Assembly (NCBI GenBank): GCA_021845685.1
Contig: JAJZVN010000012.1
Coordinates: 1 to 52,278, forward strand
Direction: 5' to 3'
From: a bacterium
GTDB taxonomy: Bacteria; SZUA-79; Acidulodesulfobacterales; Acidulodesulfobacteraceae
DNA length: 52,278 bases
Below are positions 2,779 to 16,796 of this stretch, in pieces. Positions within the stretch are counted from its first letter, which is position 1. Every line of letters starts with the position of its first letter. Both the position numbers and the translations under genes were made by a program. Under the pieces are notes generated by a model. It did no database searches, had not been told where the DNA came from, and worked only from the letters and a program-made list of their open reading frames with translations.

Positions 2779-4566
2779 TTATAAAATGGTAGGATGTTTA
2801 AAGTTAATATCGTCTTTGTTGGGGTAATCAATCGTATAATGAGTTCCTCTTGATTCTTTTCTTAACATAGCCGATGTGATAATTAAATTAGCGACTTCGG
2901 CAATATTTCTTAATTCTATTAAATCCGATGATATTTTAAAGTTCCAGTAATATTCTTTAATTTCAGTCAAAAGATTGTCAATTCTTCTTTTTGCTCTTTC
3001 AAGCCTTTTATCAGATCTTACGATACCAACATAATTCCACATCGTCCTTCTTAATTCATCCCAGTTATGAGTAATAACGATAATCTCGTCTCCGCCTTCA
3101 AGTCCAAAATCTTTCCATTCAGGAATTTCAAATAAATTAGCTTTGCCGTTTGCAGTAATATTATTTTTATTGCTATTATTGCTATTGCTATTGCTATTGC
3201 TATTGCTATAATTATTAATAGAATTATATTTGCTGTTTTCTTTATTGTTATTGTTTATTCCTGTTTTATTTTTATTATTAATATTATTTGGGCTATTTCC
3301 GGCATTTCCAGATTGTAAAATCTTTAATTTTTCTATCGTAGATTCATATGCTTTTTTAGCAAAAACACAACCCTCAAGAAGCGAATTGCTTGCAAGCCTA
3401 TTGGCTCCATGAAGTCCTGTATATGCAGCTTCTCCGATAGCATATAAATTTTCAACGGAAGTTAAACCGTTTTTATCGGTTAAGACTCCTCCACAAAGAT
3501 AATGAGCCGCAGGAACAACAGGAATCCATTGTTTTGACATATCAATTCCAAAACTAAGCGTAGTTTTAAAAATATCCGGAAATCTTTTTTCTAAAAATTC
3601 TCTTGATTTATGAGTCATATCAAGATAAACACATTCGTCTCCCGTTCTTTTCATTTCAAAATCAATCGTTCTTGCCACAATATCTCTCGGAGCAAGGCTT
3701 TTCAGAGGATGAACATTGTCCATAAACGGAGTTCCGTCTTTAAGTCTTAAAACTCCCCCTTCGCCTCTTAAAGCTTCCGATATTAAAAACGACTTTGCTT
3801 CAGGATGATAAAGAATTGTCGGATGAAACTGATAAAATTCCATATTTGCAATTTTTGCCCCTATTCTATGAGCCATCGCAATGCCGTCGCCTGTTGAAAT
3901 ATCGGGGTTGGAAGTATAAAGAAAAACCTTTCCGGCTCCTCCTGTGGCAAGTACAACAAAATCAGCGCTTACTGTTTTCACCTCATTTGTTGTTTTATCT
4001 AAAAAATAAGCTCCAAGAACTCTATCGGTTTTATCTTTATCTTTGGTTTTATCTTTATCTTTATTGTTTAATTTTTTTAATTTATTAGACGTAATTAAAT
4101 CAATAGCAATATGATTTTCAAAAATTGAAATATTGTTTTTTTGTCTTGAATTTTCAACTAAAGCTCTTTCTATTTCTCTTCCTGTTATATCCCCTGCGTG
4201 TAACACCCTTCTTTGAGAATGTCCGCCTTCTCTGCCTAAATCAAAAATTTCTTCATTTTCTTTATATCGGGCAAAATTAACTCCCCAGTTTAAAAGATCT
4301 TCGACAACGGCAGGACCTTCTTCAACAACCATTCTTACAACTTCTTCGTTGCAAATACCGTCTCCTGCAATTAAAGTATCTTTTACATGAAGACTTACCG
4401 AATCTTTAAAATTAGTAACAGCCGCTAATCCGCCTTGAGCATAATTTGTGTTAGATTCAGCTTCTTCTTTTTTGGTAAAAATACCTACGGATATATTTTC
4501 ATGATATCTATTTGCAAGACTTAATCCCGCGATTCCCGAACCTATAATTAATATATTAAAATGCAT
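2779..4566 (-). CDS. nadB: L-aspartate oxidase (NAD biosynthesis)
   Basis: Flavoenzyme oxidising L-aspartate to iminoaspartate, the first step of de novo NAD synthesis, in the cytoplasm. The FAD Rossmann motif is at residues 7-16 (IIGSGIAGLS). It is followed by NYAQGGLAAV (41-50), EGGHSQRRVLHAGD (113-126), NMEFYQFHPT (241-250), the RGEGG loop (267-271) and a C-terminal IGEAAYTGLHGANRLASNSL segment (377-396). At 595 residues it is longer than the usual ~540. The excess is a KDKDK-type insert (about 168-181) and an Asn/Ser-rich insert (about 420-476) coded partly by a TTGCTA hexamer repeat near 3178-3207. It lies 12 bases after a lipoprotein gene and is probably co-transcribed. nadA and nadC are not in the window. 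Confidence 0.96.
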   Translation of the reverse strand: MHFNILIIGSGIAGLSLANRYHENISVGIFTKKEEAESNTNYAQGGLAAVTNFKDSVSLHVKDTLIAGDGICNEEVVRMVVEEGPAVVEDLLNWGVNFARYKENEEIFDLGREGGHSQRRVLHAGDITGREIERALVENSRQKNNISIFENHIAIDLITSNKLKKLNNKDKDKTKDKDKTDRVLGAYFLDKTTNEVKTVSADFVVLATGGAGKVFLYTSNPDISTGDGIAMAHRIGAKIANMEFYQFHPTILYHPEAKSFLISEALRGEGGVLRLKDGTPFMDNVHPLKSLAPRDIVARTIDFEMKRTGDECVYLDMTHKSREFLEKRFPDIFKTTLSFGIDMSKQWIPVVPAAHYLCGGVLTDKNGLTSVENLYAIGEAAYTGLHGANRLASNSLLEGCVFAKKAYESTIEKLKILQSGNAGNSPNNINNKNKTGINNNNKENSKYNSINNYSNSNSNSNSNNSNKNNITANGKANLFEIPEWKDFGLEGGDEIIVITHNWDELRRTMWNYVGIVRSDKRLERAKRRIDNLLTEIKEYYWNFKISSDLIELRNIAEVANLIITSAMLRKESRGTHYTIDYPNKDDINFKHPTIL

Positions 4567-6352: not shown

Positions 6353-7762
6353 TTAAATAATTTCCTTGCTGAATAATTTTAATTGACCGTAATAATCATT
6401 TTCATTTTCAATCTCTTCAGGGTAAGCACCGGAAAAACATGCTTCGCAAAAATTAACTTCATTCCCGACAACTTTTCTTAAACCTTCCAAAGTCAAAAAT
6501 TTTGTAGTTGTAGCTCCTAATTTTTCATTTATTTCTTCTTCGGAATATTTTGACGCCATAAGTTCTTCTTTTACAGGTGTATCTATACCGTAATAGCACG
6601 GAGACGAAACCATAGGAGAACTTAAACGGAGATGTATTTCTTTAGCTCCGGCGGCTTTCAGCATATCTACTATTTTTTTGGAGGTTGTTCCTCTCACTAC
6701 GGAATCGTCAACCACTACGACTTTTTTCCCTTCTATCACATCTAAAACAGGATTAAGTTTAATTTTTACTCCAAAATTTCTTATCGCTCTTTTAGGTTCT
6801 ATGAAAGTTCTGCCGACATAATGGTTTCTCGTAAAACCCATTTCAAACGGAATCCCTGATTCTTTTGAATAGCCCAATGCAGCTGGAACTCCTGAATCAG
6901 GAACGGCTATAACAATATCGGCGTCGATAAATGCTTCTTTTGCAAGCTGCCTTCCCATCGCGCTGCGTATTTTATAAATTGATTGACCGTTATATATGCT
7001 ATCCGGTCTTGAAAAATAAATTAATTCAAAAACACAATATGAATTTTTTTTTCTTTCAAACGGGAAAAAGCTTTTCATTCCTTCACTATTTACAAGAATA
7101 ATTTCGCCGGGTTTGACGTCTCGTATATATTTTGCATTGATTAAATCTAAACTGCATGTTTCGGAAGCAAAAACAACGGAACCTTCAAGTTCTCCTATAA
7201 CTAAAGGACGAAAACCGAAAGGATCTCTTGCGGCTATCATTTCATTTTCCGATAAAAATAAAAATGAATAAGCGCCTTTAATTTTTTCTAATGAGCTAAT
7301 AACTCTGTCAGCTAAAAATCTTTCTTTTGATGAAGCAATTAAATGAATAACAACTTCGGTATCGGAGCTTGAATAAAATATAGAACCTTTTTCTTCTAAT
7401 TCTTTCTTAATAATATTTGCATTAGTTAAATTTCCGTTATGGGCAACGGAAATAGAACCGTAATAATAATCTGCAATAAGCGGCTGCGCATTTTTAATTA
7501 AAGTTTCTCCCGAAGTAGAATATCTGACGTGTCCTATGGCATGCTTGCCTTTTATCCTGCCAAGAGTGGTTTCGTTAAATACGTCATTAACTAAGCCTAT
7601 ATTTTTATGAAAATATATATTGCGATTGTTGTCCGATGATGCGATTCCGCATGATTCCTGTCCTCTATGCTGCAGCGCATATAAACCTAAATATGTTATA
7701 TTTGTGGATTCTTCATGGTTATAAATACCAAATACTCCACATTCTTCGCTAATTTCTTCCAT
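6353..7762 (-). CDS. purF: Amidophosphoribosyltransferase (glutamine PRPP amidotransferase)
   Basis: Commits PRPP to purine synthesis using glutamine. A seven-residue propeptide precedes Cys8 in ECGVFGI, the Ntn-type glutaminase nucleophile exposed after cleavage. The phosphoribosyltransferase domain carries VVVVDDSVVRGTT. Four Cys in the contexts YCVFELIYF, SPCYYGID and FCEACFSG match the [4Fe-4S] ligands of the Bacillus-type enzyme, so this is the oxygen-sensitive, cluster-containing form. The 469-residue length is typical. It lies downstream of purL on the same strand with a 124-base gap. Confidence 0.96.
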   Translation of the reverse strand: MEEISEECGVFGIYNHEESTNITYLGLYALQHRGQESCGIASSDNNRNIYFHKNIGLVNDVFNETTLGRIKGKHAIGHVRYSTSGETLIKNAQPLIADYYYGSISVAHNGNLTNANIIKKELEEKGSIFYSSSDTEVVIHLIASSKERFLADRVISSLEKIKGAYSFLFLSENEMIAARDPFGFRPLVIGELEGSVVFASETCSLDLINAKYIRDVKPGEIILVNSEGMKSFFPFERKKNSYCVFELIYFSRPDSIYNGQSIYKIRSAMGRQLAKEAFIDADIVIAVPDSGVPAALGYSKESGIPFEMGFTRNHYVGRTFIEPKRAIRNFGVKIKLNPVLDVIEGKKVVVVDDSVVRGTTSKKIVDMLKAAGAKEIHLRLSSPMVSSPCYYGIDTPVKEELMASKYSEEEINEKLGATTTKFLTLEGLRKVVGNEVNFCEACFSGAYPEEIENENDYYGQLKLFSKEII

Positions 7763-7886: not shown

Positions 7887-10298
7887 TTAATTGTATGTAA
7901 ATAATTTTTCTATAGAGCCATAATATTTGTCTTTTATTATATCACTTTTTAGCTCTATTGTATTATTAAATTTTATAATATCTATTGCGGTTTTGCCTAT
8001 TTTTTCAATTTTAATATCCGCATTTTTTGCCAATTCGTAAATTTTGTTTTCATCAGAAGGGTCTGCGCTTATAACAAAAGCCTGTTCAAATTCCGAAAAC
8101 AAAAGCATATCGTTTCTTAATGAAGTTTTATGAATTTCTGCAATTACTCCTAAATTTTTATTTGATTTTGATGAAATTGCCGACTCCGCCAAAGCTGTAA
8201 AAAGACCGCCTTCGCTAATATCCGATGCGCTTTTTATTAATCTTTCGCTGATTAAACCCCTTAAACAACTCTGAAGTTTTAATTCATAACCAATATCAAT
8301 AGTCAACGGTTCCTGCATAAAATCATTATGGACGAGCTCCATAAATAAACTTCCGCCTAAATTGCCGGAAAGTCGCCCAAGCAAATAAATATCGTCTCCT
8401 ATGTCTTTAAAATACGAAGTAATTGCTTTATTAACATCGTCTATATAGCCTACCATAGCGATTACGGGGGTAGGATAAATTTTTCCGGCTCCTGCCGTTT
8501 CATTATACAAACTCACATTACCGCTGACTGCAGGCGTATTAAATTTTATAGCGGCGTCGGCAATACCTCTTATAGATTCTTTAAATTGCCACATAGTTTC
8601 CGGGTCTTCGGGACTGGCAAAATTAAGGCAGTCTGTGATAGCAGCAGGTGTTCCTCCGCTTGCCGAAATATTGCGGGCGCATTCTATTACTGCAAGCATA
8701 GCGCCTTTATAGGGATTTAAATAACAATATTTTGAATTGCAGTTAGAATTTAGTAATATTCCTTTATTACTATTACTATTACTATTATTGGCAGCGATAG
8801 TGTTATTACTATTGCTAATATTAATGTTATTATTGGTATTGCTATTATTATTTATACCGTTATTAATATTTTTAACACTGACTGCATCATCTTTTTTTTC
8901 ATTACCGGTTAAATCGGCAAAACATTTATATCTTAAGACGGCGCAAGACGAACCCGGCCCAATAGTTGTATTAGTTCCTATCTGATAATCATATTGGCGA
9001 TAAATAAAATGCTTAGAAGCAATATTAGGATGCGATATTATTCTCTCAGCGATAGAATTAAAATTTTTCGGCATTCTGTAATCATCTGGATAAAATTGTT
9101 TTATATTTTTTATATAAGACGGGATCGCGGAAGTTCTATCATAAGAAGGACCGTTTACAACGGCTTCAACAGATAAAGTATGATACGGTTTAGATTTATA
9201 ATTGAATTTTATTACTTTTTCTTTGATAACCTCGCCTATAACAACGCAGTTTAAATCCCATTTTGCAAATATTTCTTCAAGTTCTTTATAATTTTCTTTT
9301 TTGCATGCCAGAAGCATTCTTTCCTGAGATTCTGAAAGCATAATATCAATAGGCGTCATTTCTGAAGCTCTTAAAGGAATTTTATCCAGATCAAAAATCA
9401 TACCTTTGCCGCTATTTTCGGACATCTCAAAGGAAGAACTGGTTAATCCTGCCGCTCCCATATCTTGAATTGAAACAATAAGCTTTTTATCCATTGCTTC
9501 AAGACATGCTTCAAGAAGTAATTTTTCCGTAAAAGGGTCTCCAACCTGAACGGTGCTTCTTTTTTTGTCTTTTTTTGCGTCAAATTCGCCTGAAGCCATA
9601 GTAGCTCCGTTAATTCCATCCATTCCTGTGGCAGAACCAACATATACGACAAGATTACCTTCTTCGCATGCGGACGAAAGAAATATGCCGTCTTTTCTGG
9701 CTATTCCTATTGTAAAAGCATTGACAAGTATATTATCGTCATAACAAGAATCAAAAACAACTTCGCCGCCTACGGTAGGAACTCCCATACAATTTCCGTA
9801 AAAACCTATGCCTTTTACGACTTCAGCCAAATAATAAGGTGTTTTAGGATGATTAAAATTTCCAAATCTTAGCGAATTAAGATTTGCAATGGGTCTTGCT
9901 CCCATTGTAAAAATATCGCGCATAATGCCGCCGACTCCTGTGGCAGCCCCTTCGAAAGGTTCTATAAAAGATGGATGATTATGACTTTCCATTTTAAACA
10001 CAAGAACATAATCATCGTCAAATTTTATAACTCCGGCATTTTCGCCCGGACCTATAATTACATTATCGCCTTTTGAAGGCAATCTTTTTAAATGTATTTT
10101 TGAACTTTTATAGCTGCAATGTTCGGACCACATAGCCGAAAATATACCTACCTCAAAATCATCAGGTTTTCTTTGCAAAATATCCGCTATTTTTTTATAT
10201 TCTTCCAAAGATAAACCGAATTGAGCGTAATTTTCGTCTATAATATTATCATCACCGTTAATATTGATATTGCCATTGTCATATTTATTATTTGCCAT
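7887..10298 (-). CDS. purL: Phosphoribosylformylglycinamidine synthase II (small PurL)
   Basis: ATP-dependent FGAR amidotransferase synthetase subunit, acting with PurQ and PurS. Recognisable blocks are MWSEHCSYKSSK (56-67), the PGENAGVIKF region (84-93), ESHNHPSFIEPFEGAATGVG (104-123) and IQDMGAAGLTSS (277-288). At 803 residues it exceeds the usual ~730. An Asn/Ser-rich insert at about residues 466-524 (coded around 8730-8900, with TTACTA-type DNA repeats) falls between two conserved blocks, and there is a small Asn-rich N-terminal tail. It follows purQ by 30 bases. Confidence 0.96.
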   Translation of the reverse strand: MANNKYDNGNININGDDNIIDENYAQFGLSLEEYKKIADILQRKPDDFEVGIFSAMWSEHCSYKSSKIHLKRLPSKGDNVIIGPGENAGVIKFDDDYVLVFKMESHNHPSFIEPFEGAATGVGGIMRDIFTMGARPIANLNSLRFGNFNHPKTPYYLAEVVKGIGFYGNCMGVPTVGGEVVFDSCYDDNILVNAFTIGIARKDGIFLSSACEEGNLVVYVGSATGMDGINGATMASGEFDAKKDKKRSTVQVGDPFTEKLLLEACLEAMDKKLIVSIQDMGAAGLTSSSFEMSENSGKGMIFDLDKIPLRASEMTPIDIMLSESQERMLLACKKENYKELEEIFAKWDLNCVVIGEVIKEKVIKFNYKSKPYHTLSVEAVVNGPSYDRTSAIPSYIKNIKQFYPDDYRMPKNFNSIAERIISHPNIASKHFIYRQYDYQIGTNTTIGPGSSCAVLRYKCFADLTGNEKKDDAVSVKNINNGINNNSNTNNNINISNSNNTIAANNSNSNSNKGILLNSNCNSKYCYLNPYKGAMLAVIECARNISASGGTPAAITDCLNFASPEDPETMWQFKESIRGIADAAIKFNTPAVSGNVSLYNETAGAGKIYPTPVIAMVGYIDDVNKAITSYFKDIGDDIYLLGRLSGNLGGSLFMELVHNDFMQEPLTIDIGYELKLQSCLRGLISERLIKSASDISEGGLFTALAESAISSKSNKNLGVIAEIHKTSLRNDMLLFSEFEQAFVISADPSDENKIYELAKNADIKIEKIGKTAIDIIKFNNTIELKSDIIKDKYYGSIEKLFTYN

Positions 10299-10328: not shown

Positions 10329-11054
10329 TTATTTGTTTTTTACATAATAAATAATAGAATTAAATATTTTTGCCCCGTCATCGCTTCCCAATATTTTTTC
10401 AGAAGCTCTTTCAGGGTGAGGCATAAGACCTAATATATTGAATTTTTCTCCAAATAATCCTCCGATATTTTTAATAGAACCGTTAGGATTGGATTCGTCT
10501 GATGTAATGCCTGCCGCATCGCAATATTGAAAAGCAATTTGATTTGCCGAAAACAAATAATCTACTTCTTTTTTTTCGGCAAAATAATTTCCGTCATGAT
10601 GAGCAATAGGAAGCTTTAATACCGCATCTTTATTTATAAGGCACGTAAAAGGATTATTTTGATTATTATTGCCTGTATTCTTTATATATACATCTTTGCA
10701 TTCAAATTTTAATGATTTATTAGTTAGCATTGCTCCTTTAAGCAATCCTGATTCTAAAAGTATCTGAAAGCCATTGCAAATACCAAGAATAATACCTCCG
10801 CCGGCAGCATAGTCTTTTATTGACTCCATTACTCTGCTTCTTGCCGCCAAAGCTCCCGCCCTTAAATAATCCCCGTAAGAAAAACCTCCGGGGATAACGA
10901 TAAAATCGTACTTTTTAAAATTATGAAATTCATCTTTATGCCATAAAAAAGTCACATTAATATTAAAAACATCTTTTAATGCATAATAAACGTCAATATC
11001 GCAATTAGAACCCGGGAAAACAGTAATACCGGCGTTGATTTTTTTATTTTCCAT
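10329..11054 (-). CDS. purQ: Phosphoribosylformylglycinamidine synthase, glutaminase subunit
   Basis: Supplies ammonia to PurL from glutamine. Class I amidotransferase features are present: PGGFSYGDYLRAGA oxyanion region (55-68), the nucleophile in GICNGFQILLES (91-102) and the catalytic His-x-Glu in MPHPERAS near the C-terminus. The 241 residues are normal for the small PurQ partner of a split FGAM synthase. It sits between purB-purS and purL with short gaps (41 and 30 bases), making a purine operon. Confidence 0.96.
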   Translation of the reverse strand: MENKKINAGITVFPGSNCDIDVYYALKDVFNINVTFLWHKDEFHNFKKYDFIVIPGGFSYGDYLRAGALAARSRVMESIKDYAAGGGIILGICNGFQILLESGLLKGAMLTNKSLKFECKDVYIKNTGNNNQNNPFTCLINKDAVLKLPIAHHDGNYFAEKKEVDYLFSANQIAFQYCDAAGITSDESNPNGSIKNIGGLFGEKFNILGLMPHPERASEKILGSDDGAKIFNSIIYYVKNK

Positions 11055-11095: not shown

Positions 11096-12796
11096 TTATT
11101 TTATCTCAATTTCAAAATTTTCGATTAAAGGATTAGACAATATCTTTTCCGAAATATCTCTTAACTCTTTATTTAATGCTTCTTTGTCTAATTCGTCTAA
11201 ATTTTGATTATTATTTTTGCTATTTTTACCATGATATTTGTTATTGCCGCTGCTGCTATCATATTCATTATTGTTTTCAATCTTATCTGCCGCATTGTTG
11301 CCAGCCGCATTATTTCTTTCTTCTTTTCTTTTATTTTTTTTCTCTTTTTTAATAGTTAATTCTATATGTTTTCCTACTCTGACATCTTCAATATTATTAA
11401 AACCCGATGATTTTAAAACTGATAAAACTGCTTTTCCCTGAGGATCTAAAACCTCGTCTTTCAATGTTACTTTAACTACTGCTTTATAAGAATCGGGGAT
11501 AGGAAATAACGATAAAGATCTTTCAAAAATAAAATCTATATTTTTATAATAATAATTAATATCAAATAAATTTCTTATTTCATCTTCTTTTAAATATTTT
11601 AAAACATCGGCATTATTTTTTAACAAAATAACAAATTCTGTTTCAGTTTGAATAGCCTGATGCGCAAGTTTTTGAACAATTGCATACGCATCTTCCCTGA
11701 GCATTCCTTTATCTGTCAAAGTAAGAAGAACTTTTTGCGAAAAAATTACTCCTTTGGTTAATTGCATATTTTTAAGCATTTTATCTTCATGGACTACCAT
11801 ATTGTCAACTAAATTAATAAGCTGATGTAAGATATAATATGCTAAAATAGTTGAATCCGGAGTTATAATTCTTTCAACGGAAGAATGGGAAATATCTCTT
11901 TCATGCCATAACGCAATATCTTCGAGAGCCGACATTAAATTAGACCTTAAAACTCGGGAAAGTCCGCAAATATTTTCGGAAACAATTGGATTTTTTTTAT
12001 GCGGCATTGCGGAAGAACCTTTTTGACCTGCAGAAAAAGATTCTTCGGCTTCGGAAACTTCGGTTCTCATTAAATGCCTCATTTCAAGAGCTATTTTTTC
12101 GCATGAAGCTCCCAATGAAGCCAATGCATAAAAACATTCGGCATAAATATCCCTTTGAATTATCTGATTTGACAATAAAGGTTTTAAGTCTAAAATTTCA
12201 AGGGCTATTTTTTCAACTTCGGGGGGCACATTCGCAAAAGTTCCGACGGCGCCAGAAAGTTTTCCGCATGAAACCGTTTCAACGGCTTGCTTTAATCTAT
12301 ATATTCCCCTATTAATTTCTTCATAAAATATAAGAAGTTTAAAACCGAATGTTATAGGTTCCGCATGTATTCCGTGGGTTCTGCCCATCATAGGAGTGTG
12401 CTTATATTTAAGAGCTTTTTGCGCCAAACTTTCAGCAAGACTTTCGGCTTTTGACAAAATTAAATTAAGCGCTTGCCTGAACAATAAAGAAAACGAAGTA
12501 TCGCCGACATCGGAAGAAGTAAGTCCAAGATGAATATATCTTGAATCTTCGCCGACATATTTTGCAACATTTGTTAAAAAAGCAATAACATCATGTTTTG
12601 TGATTTTTTCTGTTTCTTCTATTTCCGCAACCTCAAATCTGGCGTTTTTTAAAATATTTTCCGTTGATTTATCAGGAATTTTGCCGATTTTATTATAGGC
12701 GGAGCAAACTGCAAGTTCAACTTTAAGCCATGTGTTATATTTATTTTTTAAAGACCAAATATCTGAAATTTCCGGCAAGGAATATCTTTCTATCAA
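11096..12796 (-). CDS. purB: Adenylosuccinate lyase fused to a C-terminal PurS domain
   Basis: Residues 1-435 are an adenylosuccinate lyase: HLGLTSSDVGDTS (89-101), GRTHGIHAEP (138-147) and the signature SSAMPHKKNP (261-270). It releases fumarate from SAICAR and adenylosuccinate. Residues about 438-566 read as PurS, the small bridging subunit of FGAM synthase. VKVTLKDEVLDPQGKAVLSV (441-460) and DVRVGKHIELTI (471-482) are followed, after an Asn-rich insert (about 485-532), by a helix and the final LSNPLIENFEIEI. No separate purS is seen, while split purL and purQ follow immediately, so the fusion is functionally coherent. The lyase call is firm; the PurS call rests on motif resemblance. Confidence 0.94.
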   Translation of the reverse strand: MIERYSLPEISDIWSLKNKYNTWLKVELAVCSAYNKIGKIPDKSTENILKNARFEVAEIEETEKITKHDVIAFLTNVAKYVGEDSRYIHLGLTSSDVGDTSFSLLFRQALNLILSKAESLAESLAQKALKYKHTPMMGRTHGIHAEPITFGFKLLIFYEEINRGIYRLKQAVETVSCGKLSGAVGTFANVPPEVEKIALEILDLKPLLSNQIIQRDIYAECFYALASLGASCEKIALEMRHLMRTEVSEAEESFSAGQKGSSAMPHKKNPIVSENICGLSRVLRSNLMSALEDIALWHERDISHSSVERIITPDSTILAYYILHQLINLVDNMVVHEDKMLKNMQLTKGVIFSQKVLLTLTDKGMLREDAYAIVQKLAHQAIQTETEFVILLKNNADVLKYLKEDEIRNLFDINYYYKNIDFIFERSLSLFPIPDSYKAVVKVTLKDEVLDPQGKAVLSVLKSSGFNNIEDVRVGKHIELTIKKEKKNKRKEERNNAAGNNAADKIENNNEYDSSSGNNKYHGKNSKNNNQNLDELDKEALNKELRDISEKILSNPLIENFEIEIK

Positions 12797-12962: not shown

Positions 12963-13364
12963 TTATTTTTTAGTAGCTATTGCAATCTTATAAAGTCCAT
13001 TCTTAATAGCAGAACTCATAACGGCAACAACGCTGTTAATTTTTGACGCCTTATCCGCTTTTATCACAATTGTAGGATTAGCGCCTGTTTTTTTTAAAAA
13101 AGATAAAATTTTTGAAAGTTTTTTCAACGTTATTTCTTTTTTTTTATAATAAACACTGCCTGCTTTTGTAATATATATAGTAATAGGTTTTTTTGAAGCA
13201 GCCGAAGTTCTAAGCCCTGATTTAGGAAGATGTATTTTAATACCTGAATTATTACTTGCAAAAGTAGTAGTCATCATAAAAAATATTAATAAAGTTAAAA
13301 ATACATCAACCATATTAATAACATTAATAATAGGATCAGGTTTTTTTCTTTCCGCAAATTTCAT
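12963..13364 (-). CDS. exbD: ExbD/TolR-family biopolymer transport protein
   Basis: A 133-residue inner-membrane protein with a short cytoplasmic N-terminus and one transmembrane helix. The helix (about 16-36) starts INMVDVFLTLLIFFMM and contains the conserved membrane Asp used for proton-motive-force coupling. A periplasmic domain follows. It lies 9 bases after exbB on the same strand. Together they would energise a TonB- or TolA-type outer-membrane process; no TonB or receptor gene is visible here. Confidence 0.92.
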   Translation of the reverse strand: MKFAERKKPDPIINVINMVDVFLTLLIFFMMTTTFASNNSGIKIHLPKSGLRTSAASKKPITIYITKAGSVYYKKKEITLKKLSKILSFLKKTGANPTIVIKADKASKINSVVAVMSSAIKNGLYKIAIATKK

Positions 13365-13373
13365 ATAAAATAA

Positions 13374-13982
13374 TTAGTCTCTATTTATTTTAGATATTAA
13401 AGAAGAAGCCATATCTTCCATAATTACCGCATAATTAAAAGATTTTGAAACAAAATATTTATAAAATAAAAAACATACTATAGCAATTATTAAACCCATC
13501 GCGGTTGAATATAACGCTTCGGAAATACCTAACGCCAGCAAATGCGGATTTGCAATTCCTTTATTGTAAGAAACGGCACTTAAAGCTTTAATCATTCCAA
13601 CTACAGTTCCAAGCAGACCGAGAAGCGGCGCGATTGTTGTAATTGCGCTTAGACCTTCAAGATTTTTTCCAAGCTCCGAATAAGCTCTTTTTCCTGCTTC
13701 TTCCACTTCTAATTTAACAGTATCCATTGAATTTCTATAATTTTCAATTATAGAAAGGTAAACCCTTGTTAAAGGCGTCGCAAAACCAGAGCATATACCT
13801 TTTGCTTTTTCAATTTCACCCTTTTTTAAAGCATCTTCAATATTAACTATTAAATCTTGAGGAAATATTTTAGATTTTCTGAGGTTATAAAATCTTTCAA
13901 TTATTATTGCAAGACCGATAATAGAACACAAAAGAAGAGGGTATAAAAAATATTCCGATATTAAAATAGTAGAATTAAACAT
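13374..13982 (-). CDS. exbB: ExbB/TolQ/MotA-family proton channel protein
   Basis: A 202-residue protein with three hydrophobic segments: near residues 10-27, around 105-130 (TIAPLLGLLGTVVGMIKAL, the family hallmark) and around 150-175. It forms the proton-conducting complex with the downstream ExbD. A weak AGGTGA ribosome-binding site lies upstream. Assignment to ExbB rather than TolQ is by context only, since no tol or pal genes are present. Confidence 0.9.
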   Translation of the reverse strand: MFNSTILISEYFLYPLLLCSIIGLAIIIERFYNLRKSKIFPQDLIVNIEDALKKGEIEKAKGICSGFATPLTRVYLSIIENYRNSMDTVKLEVEEAGKRAYSELGKNLEGLSAITTIAPLLGLLGTVVGMIKALSAVSYNKGIANPHLLALGISEALYSTAMGLIIAIVCFLFYKYFVSKSFNYAVIMEDMASSLISKINRD

Positions 13983-14103: not shown

Positions 14104-15144
14104 TTATAGATAATATTTTACCCTTACTTTTTTAAATTCTTTTATGCTTTTTAGACTACTGAAATCTTTTATGTCTGTTAACTCAGCTATTTTATCCATA
14201 ATCTTTAACGCTTCTTCTTCGTTTTTTGTATGAATCATAGTAAAAATATTATATTCCCATTTGCCTGGATATGTAAATCTTCTATAACAATGAGAAACTT
14301 CATTTATTGAAGCCATAATTTTTCCGTTTTTATCAATTTCATCTTCTTTTGATTTCCATATACCCATTATATTATAATTAAATCCGGCTTTTTGATGATA
14401 CAGAACACAAGCAAATCTGCGCATTTTTTTTTCTTCTATAAACTTAGAAATTTGACAGAGAAGCTCTTCTTGAGAAATATTTAAATTTGAAGCGGCGTTT
14501 TTAAAAGGTTCGCCTGTAATTTCTAAATCTTTTTGCAATTCTCTTATGCAATCTTTTTCAAATTCGCTGATATTAATTTTAGAATCGTCAATAGCATCGT
14601 CTTGCGAAAAATATCTAAAATTAGCATTAGCATTAGCATTAGCATTAGCATTATATATATTTTTATTGTTTGCAGTTTCGATTTCTTCCGTCATATCAAA
14701 ATTAACGCCTATTTTAAATAATTTTAATGTAGGAAGAATCAGGTAATCTTCAGCTTTGGAGTTTTTTGATATAGTGCTTATTTCTTCTTCAAAATCTTTA
14801 TCGGGAGGTAAAGTAATAGTAAACCAGATATTATAGGGATTATTTCTAAGATAATTATGGCTGACTCCTTTATATGAATTAATAACGGATGCCGCATTAT
14901 CTATCTCACATTCAGGAACTTTAAAAGCAGCAAGAGTGCCTTTATATCCGATATTATGCGAATCAAATATTGCGCTTATTTGTCTAATTATCTTTTCTTG
15001 TTTTAAATTTATAATTCTATTTAACACTTCTTCTTCACTAATACCCAATCGCAAACCTATTTCCCTAAACGGTCTTGCTGAAATAGGAAAATCTGTTTGT
15101 AAAATATTTAAAATCTTTTTATCAAATAAATCTAATTCCATAAT
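14104..15144 (-). CDS. Fused siroheme decarboxylase (AhbA-AhbB / NirDL-like)
   Basis: Two Lrp/AsnC-type halves in tandem. Half 1 (about 1-150) has a winged-helix start ELDLFDKKILNILQ and the motif SHNYLRNNPYNIWFT (94-108). Half 2 (about 192-346) has FEKDCIRELQ and SHCYRRFTYPGKWEYNIFTM (283-302), a hallmark of AhbB/NirL-type decarboxylases with its conserved His and Arg. The family removes carboxyls from siroheme to give 12,18-didecarboxysiroheme for alternative heme or heme d1 synthesis. The halves are joined by a linker containing an (NA)n tract coded by a tandem ATTAGC hexamer (14621-14652). An upstream in-frame start at 15249 would add 35 residues with a hydrophobic stretch. I prefer this ATG because the domain begins here. 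Confidence 0.85.
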   Translation of the reverse strand: MMELDLFDKKILNILQTDFPISARPFREIGLRLGISEEEVLNRIINLKQEKIIRQISAIFDSHNIGYKGTLAAFKVPECEIDNAASVINSYKGVSHNYLRNNPYNIWFTITLPPDKDFEEEISTISKNSKAEDYLILPTLKLFKIGVNFDMTEEIETANNKNIYNANANANANANFRYFSQDDAIDDSKINISEFEKDCIRELQKDLEITGEPFKNAASNLNISQEELLCQISKFIEEKKMRRFACVLYHQKAGFNYNIMGIWKSKEDEIDKNGKIMASINEVSHCYRRFTYPGKWEYNIFTMIHTKNEEEALKIMDKIAELTDIKDFSSLKSIKEFKKVRVKYYL

Positions 15145-15282
15145 TTTTTTATAATCACCCGTTAAAATATAAAAATAAAAAATTACTATAAAAATAATTA
15201 ATGTAAATATTTTTTTATTGTTATAAGTTCTTATCTTATTTAGTATCATTATAGATTATAGAATCAATCTAATCAATAAAAA

Positions 15283-15440: not shown

Positions 15441-15815
15441 TTATTTCAGAGATTCTAGATAGTGGGCTAAAGTGTTTACCTGAGATTTGGGCATATTTTT
15501 ATGGCTGGGCATAATTGCCATAAAAGATTTACCGTTAATTGTAACCATACTTCCCGGAGCAAAATGAGCCGAAGGAGTCACAATTTGTGTTTTAATCCAG
15601 CTAAGACTTCTCTGGCTTCCCACATGGGAAAGATTTGGTCCGACGGAACCTCCTTTTCCGTTAATAGTATGACAGGCAATGCAGCCGTCGGAGTTAAACA
15701 GCGAAGGTCCTGATGCGGCAAAAGCCATTGACGAAGTTAAGGCTAAAATTCCAAGTCCTAAAACAGCAATAGTTAAAATTTTTGATTTAATTAATTTTGA
15801 AACTAAATTGTTCAT
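15441..15815 (-). CDS. Periplasmic monoheme class I cytochrome c (copy 1)
   Basis: A 124-residue electron carrier. A signal peptide (about 1-33) ends in SSMAFA. The mature part has one heme-binding site CIACH (45-49), a GPNLSHVG segment and a distal Met ligand candidate in AIMPSHKNM, then the C-terminal helix LAHYLESLK. A strong AGGAG lies 5-6 bases before the ATG, suggesting high expression. It is nearly identical in its mature part to the second cytochrome at 16449-16796, pointing to recent duplication. Redox partner unknown; the neighbouring siroheme decarboxylase fits a heme-dependent respiratory lifestyle. Confidence 0.92.
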   Translation of the reverse strand: MNNLVSKLIKSKILTIAVLGLGILALTSSMAFAASGPSLFNSDGCIACHTINGKGGSVGPNLSHVGSQRSLSWIKTQIVTPSAHFAPGSMVTINGKSFMAIMPSHKNMPKSQVNTLAHYLESLK

Positions 15816-16448: not shown

Positions 16449-16796
16449 TTATTTCAAAGATTCTAAATAACTTGCTAATGCAGTAAGTTCTGAAGCCTGC
16501 ATATTTTTATGACCCGGCATAATCGCCATATAAGATTTGCCATTAATTGTTACTGAACTTCCTGACGCAAAATGTGCCGAAGGATCTGTAATCTGAGTTT
16601 TTATCCAAGAAAGGCTTCTTTTGCTTCCTACATGGGAAAGATTCGGTCCGACGGAACCGCCGTTTCCGTCAATAGTATGACAGGCGATGCAGCCATCGGA
16701 GTTAAAAATTGAAGCTCCTGATGCGGCAAAAGCCATTGAAGCATTAATCATAATTAATCCTAAAATAATAATAAAAATACCTGTAATTTTTTTCAT
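16449..16796 (-). CDS. Periplasmic monoheme class I cytochrome c (copy 2)
   Basis: 115 residues with a signal peptide ending MAFA (about residue 24), heme site CIACH (36-40), the same GPNLSHVG segment and the AIMPGHKNM distal Met region. It is a paralogue of the cytochrome at 15441-15815, differing mainly in the signal peptide. AAAGGAGGTGA, a near-perfect ribosome-binding site, precedes the ATG. Like copy 1 it has a MITE-like element less than 100 bases upstream. Confidence 0.92.
   Translation of the reverse strand: MKKITGIFIIILGLIMINASMAFAASGASIFNSDGCIACHTIDGNGGSVGPNLSHVGSKRSLSWIKTQITDPSAHFASGSSVTINGKSYMAIMPGHKNMQASELTALASYLESLK

Follow-up and report, generated by a model that had tools for sequence, protein, structure and literature searches.

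A conserved and recurrent PurB–PurS fusion among the purine genes of Candidatus Acididesulfobacter

Introduction

Adenylosuccinate lyase (PurB) acts at steps 8 and 12 of purine synthesis, and FGAM synthase (PurL with PurQ) at step 4. A further protein, PurS, has been reported to be necessary for efficient FGAM synthase function (PMC3815217), and is normally a small stand-alone protein, typically of fewer than 100 residues (PMC3261824). In the stretch of DNA analysed here (the window; 52,278 nucleotides of contig JAJZVN010000012.1), PurB and PurS appear to be encoded as one chain, which raises the question of whether the fusion is real, whether both of its parts work, how it arose and what it might do. 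The window comes from Candidatus Acididesulfobacter (Candidatus Acidulidesulfobacter in the NCBI spelling), a genus that, like its order, originates from acid mine drainage (PMC6776010).

Results and Discussion

Architecture of the fusion gene

The minus-strand reading frame 12796..11096 is a single open frame of 566 amino acids with a TTG start, and encodes PurB followed by PurS. It is divided as follows:

11096..12796, minus strand: PurB–PurS fusion gene, 566 aa (ORF call, profile matches, start context)
11519..12796, minus strand: PurB (adenylosuccinate lyase), residues 1–426 (TIGR00928, alignment to T. maritima 1c3u, Foldseek)
11489..11518, minus strand: linker of about 10 residues, residues 427–436 (SLSLFPIPDS; boundary reading)
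11339..11488, minus strand: N-terminal half of PurS, residues 437–486 (PF02700/NF004630; alignment to B. subtilis PurS 1t4a)
11177..11338, minus strand: Asn-rich hypervariable insert, about residues 487–540 (pLDDT mostly below 50)
11099..11176, minus strand: C-terminal half of PurS, residues 541–566 (ISEKILSNPLIENFEIEI; second PF02700 stretch, conservation)

Residues 1–426 score 498.7 bits against the TIGR00928 purB profile (cut-off 326.2) and contain Lyase_1 and ADSL_C domains, the latter with 75 bits for PF10397 (cut-off 32.7). The initial annotation, which gave no strand, had proposed a PurB–PurS fusion on the strength of PurS hallmark motifs in the C-terminal part, and this is borne out, as both domains exceed curated cut-offs in one frame and the quoted motifs are present. 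The PurS family match lies where it had been predicted, with residues 436/437–566 scoring 86.2 bits against NF004630 (cut-off 75) and the C-terminal part 72.1 bits against TIGR00302 (cut-off 39). The proposed splitting of PurS by an Asn-rich segment is likewise confirmed by Pfam PF02700 (81.4 bits, cut-off 22.2), which matches in two stretches on either side of the insert. Because it is fused and, with the insert, amounts to 130 residues, we refer to this part as a PurS domain rather than a PurS protein.

The front of the chain has its best solved relatives in the PurBs of T. maritima and Bacillus, and the back in B. subtilis PurS. The PurB part resembles bacterial PurBs (T. maritima 1c3u, B. 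anthracis 2pfm, S. aureus 2x75) in its full-length domain and catalytic motifs, with 46–49% identity over the structural alignment, but differs from bacterial PurB as described by TIGR00928 in the addition of a C-terminal PurS domain. That domain shares with the PurS of B. subtilis (1t4a) and of the T. maritima PurLQS complex (3d54) its core sequence and the conserved LDPQG, VRVGK and NPxIE positions. As with stand-alone PurS, PurQ and PurL are encoded next to it; it departs from stand-alone PurS in being fused to PurB and in carrying an insert of 36–73 residues where a short loop otherwise connects strand 3 to helix 2.

In the structure model, PurB is mostly confident and its Foldseek search returns PurB structures with a probability of 1.00. 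The PurS part is moderately confident (pLDDT about 55–72), with several elements of the strand-helix-strands-helix-strand fold predicted.

The seven genomes of the genus, and the one sister genome examined, all begin purB with the same TTG, a conserved rare start codon (TTG at 12796; purB of loci L034–L040).

Conservation of both domains

PurB and both halves of PurS are under purifying selection, with pairwise dN well below dS within the genus; for the N-terminal half of PurS, for example, dS is 0.73 and dN 0.11 between genomes G000 and G003. In the insert, pairwise dN reaches 0.96, much above the values of the other parts. The catalytic His motifs and signature loop of PurB are intact (KHDVIAF at 67–73, GRTHGIHAEP at 138–147, SSAMPHKKNP at 261–270), and the PurS part is 62–69% identical to the stand-alone PurS of sister genera, with the conserved positions kept.

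A working PurS domain need not stay attached to the lyase, as proteolysis, or translation starting internally, within the linker or insert could release PurS and leave no lasting tether. The linker and the Asn-rich loop look exposed and disordered in the model, and four of the seven linkers contain an ATG or TTG in frame, ahead of the first PurS strand. However, where the stand-alone purS of the sisters has an ATG start and a purine-rich ribosome-binding site, none of the seven fusions has such a site with a start at the PurB/PurS boundary, so that we reject an internal start yielding free PurS. In the window genome, in its nearest relative and in G005, in-frame start codons are absent altogether ahead of the first PurS strand, and the variable linker shows no conserved cleavage motif. 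Altogether, release of PurS by either route appears unlikely.

Gene neighbourhood and single copy

The genes around the fusion are:

12963..13982, minus strand: exbD and exbB, the upstream neighbours, conserved across the family and a gene-order marker outside the fusion
10329..11054, minus strand: purQ, FGAM synthase glutaminase subunit (NF002957, 283 bits)
7887..10298, minus strand: purL, small PurL of 803 aa that has an Asn-rich insert around residues 476–511 (NF002290, 914.5 bits)
6353..7762, minus strand: purF-like gene with class II glutamine amidotransferase and phosphoribosyltransferase domains (Pfam GATase_7, GATase_6, Pribosyltran)

Downstream of the fusion gene the order is thus purQ, purL and the purF-like gene, and the profile matches agree with the initial annotation in placing both FGAM synthase partners directly after the fusion. 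The further claim that there is no separate purS also holds: the fusion is the sole genome-wide match to PF02700 (3.04 Mb, 96.3% complete, 199 contigs), although in a draft of this kind a second purS could be missed, and none of the remaining six genomes of the genus yielded an additional purS. The only other lyase-family match in the window genome is ArgH (argininosuccinate lyase), which we rejected as a candidate second purB. The fusion provides the sole PurS of the genome and, so far as could be found, the sole PurB. PurC is encoded separately, on another contig.

With PurL in its small form and PurQ a separate protein, FGAM synthase would be expected to require the fused PurS. This bears on the possibility that the domain is no more than a relic, dispensable for FGAM synthase. 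The large insert splitting the domain could be taken that way, but a relic is hard to reconcile with purifying selection on both PurS halves, with retention of the conserved positions, and with the presence of small PurL and PurQ in a genome lacking any further PurS. We therefore regard a relic as very improbable, and on these patterns of conservation both domains most likely work.

Two further loci upstream of the exb genes are of separate interest. At 14104–15249 (minus strand) lies a siroheme decarboxylase-type protein whose single chain contains two NirDL/AsnC-like units joined by an (AN)n-type repeat, and 15441–15815 and 16449–16796 (minus strand) encode a pair of very similar small c-type cytochromes that seem to have arisen by local duplication.

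Origin of the fusion within the genus

The architecture read from the window recurs in related genomes: each of the seven genomes of the genus carries the PurB–PurS fusion. In contrast, purB and purS are separate but adjacent in all 14 genomes from five sister genera. Nearly all loci in sisters and genus alike have the order exbB-exbD-purB-purS-purQ-purL; two loci lack some of these genes because they are cut off by the end of the contig or of the stretch retrieved. Since the sisters keep purB and purS adjacent in the same order, the fusion is best explained by loss of the boundary between neighbours, and this would have been an easy route, as in three sisters the purS frame is open directly past the purB stop.

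In the PurB tree the seven fused PurBs form one clade (100/100) nested in the clade of their family (100/100), which supports the view that the fusion arose once, from neighbouring genes, in the ancestor of the genus. As the fused PurB nests in its own family, we reject transfer of one ancestral fused gene as the source in this genus. The DNA of the seven fusions is divergent, PurB dS being near 1 between two sub-clades, and the genomes come from separate named isolates. An assembly or frameshift artefact, which the draft state of the window's assembly (199 contigs) might have suggested, is thereby refuted, since seven genomes carry the fusion with different DNA.

The Asn-rich insert

Within the genus the insert varies from 36 to 73 residues (about 50 in the window) with 18–30% Asn, and it differs even among near-identical strains. 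In the model it is disordered, with residues 484–536 at a pLDDT below 50. It is probably a separate, fast-evolving disordered loop in which change of length is tolerated.

A simple window measure detects Asn-rich stretches at six of the seven loci of the genus and at none of the 14 sister loci. We disfavour the insert as a part specific to the fusion, as comparable inserts are present in PurL and in further proteins of this genus, and that measure finds none at the 14 sister loci. Low-complexity stretches are also expanding elsewhere in this AT-rich genus, and the insert is best read as part of this genus-wide expansion, distinct from the fusion itself. Within the window, such Plasmodium-like Asn-rich inserts in conserved enzymes are found at 7887–10298 (PurL, residues ~476–511), 2779–4566 (residues ~427–470), 14104–15249 and 11177–11338.

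Fusions in other lineages

Our survey covered 386 genomes from about 250 families, with 80 weaker PurS matches re-read and nine of the weakest left out. PurS is present in at least 253 of these genomes, and joined to PurB in two families besides that of the window. In the first (f248), 12 of 14 genomes, from four genera, have the fusion, as open frames of 512–574 residues; all eight loci read have PurB and PurS in one frame, followed by purQ and purL. Among the families listed, the nearest others to f248 have mostly stand-alone PurS of about 79–146 residues. In the second (f70), five genomes from three genera carry fusions of 505–530 residues (for example on CALHPK010000001.1). Here purQ and purL are not adjacent, which indicates that a shared operon is not essential.

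These fusions have the domain order of those in Ca. Acididesulfobacter, and f248 also the downstream purQ and purL, but the loci read lack the Asn-rich insert, their PurS is more divergent and their PurB is distant in the tree. The f248 and f70 PurBs are long branches whose separateness from each other is uncertain by the tree alone, and overall the sequences point to at least two, and probably three, origins of PurB–PurS.

A further family (f46) has PurC–PurS fusions, in open frames of 318 residues (locus L055, 2945–3898, genome G074) and 337 residues (L056, G349), with purQ and purL adjacent. As in PurB–PurS, a purine-pathway enzyme is joined to the N-terminus of PurS, but the partner, as read at L055, is SAICAR synthetase, the enzyme of step 7. 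Long frames around PurS in G360, G166, G375 and G332 were rejected as fusions because their upstream part does not read as a known purine enzyme; in G375 and G332, purC lies upstream of PurS in another frame.

We found no description of a PurB–PurS fusion in the literature on fusions, PurS and purine complexes, which is weak evidence given thin coverage of subscription journals. The fusion is real, conserved, recurrent and built of two well-known families, and is apparently undescribed.

A possible lyase–FGAM synthase assembly

On the comparisons above, we think it probable that loss of the purB/purS boundary in the ancestor of the genus gave a single chain with a working lyase and a working PurS domain, and that this chain carries FGAM synthase. 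If both domains work, as their conservation supports, the fusion would tie the lyase physically to FGAM synthase, as the initial annotation had suggested: with only one PurS found in the genome, PurL and PurQ would have to assemble on the lyase's PurS arms. PurBs of this type form homotetramers. The PurS:PurL:PurQ stoichiometry is 2:1:1 (PMC10912719), and four PurS arms on a PurB tetramer could therefore form two PurS dimers and bind two PurL–PurQ pairs, giving an assembly of roughly (PurB-PurS)4 PurL2 PurQ2 and about 0.5 MDa.

A stronger proposal would be that (PurB-PurS)4 PurL2 PurQ2 is an obligate supercomplex that serves as the genetically fixed core of a bacterial purine-enzyme assembly and has been selected more than once independently. 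We consider this somewhat improbable. As steps 4, 8 and 12 are not consecutive, simple hand-over of substrate does not explain the tie, and fixed stoichiometry or co-location would be a more obvious gain than direct channelling.

The adaptive part of this proposal, and that part only, competes with a neutral fusion, in which both domains work and the join reflects simple loss of the boundary with no benefit at the level of a complex. We give such a neutral history a little less than an even chance. It is favoured by the genes having already been neighbours, by those sisters in which the purS frame is open directly past the purB stop, and by the AT-rich genus in which other low-complexity stretches are expanding. 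On the other side, every one of the seven genomes of the genus retains the join, which spans four genera in f248 and recurs in unrelated lineages, although retention alone is no proof of benefit.

Provided that both domains work, the fusion would be natural evidence that lyase and FGAM synthase can co-locate in bacteria, and would offer a stable handle for testing whether a lasting purine-enzyme complex exists there. The repeated fusion of PurS, to PurB in three families and to PurC in one, suggests that PurS tolerates attachment and may serve as an attachment point. A parallel is found in large PurL, the single-chain FGAM synthase, where PurS-like repeats are also covalently tied to a purine protein (PMC3815217), but there the tie is to PurL itself and not to an enzyme of another step.

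The survey also turned up frames of about 150–190 aa with two PurS-like matches (in G066, G095, G171, G211, G266, G281, G344 and others), which are possibly natural single-chain PurS pairs, separate from large PurL.
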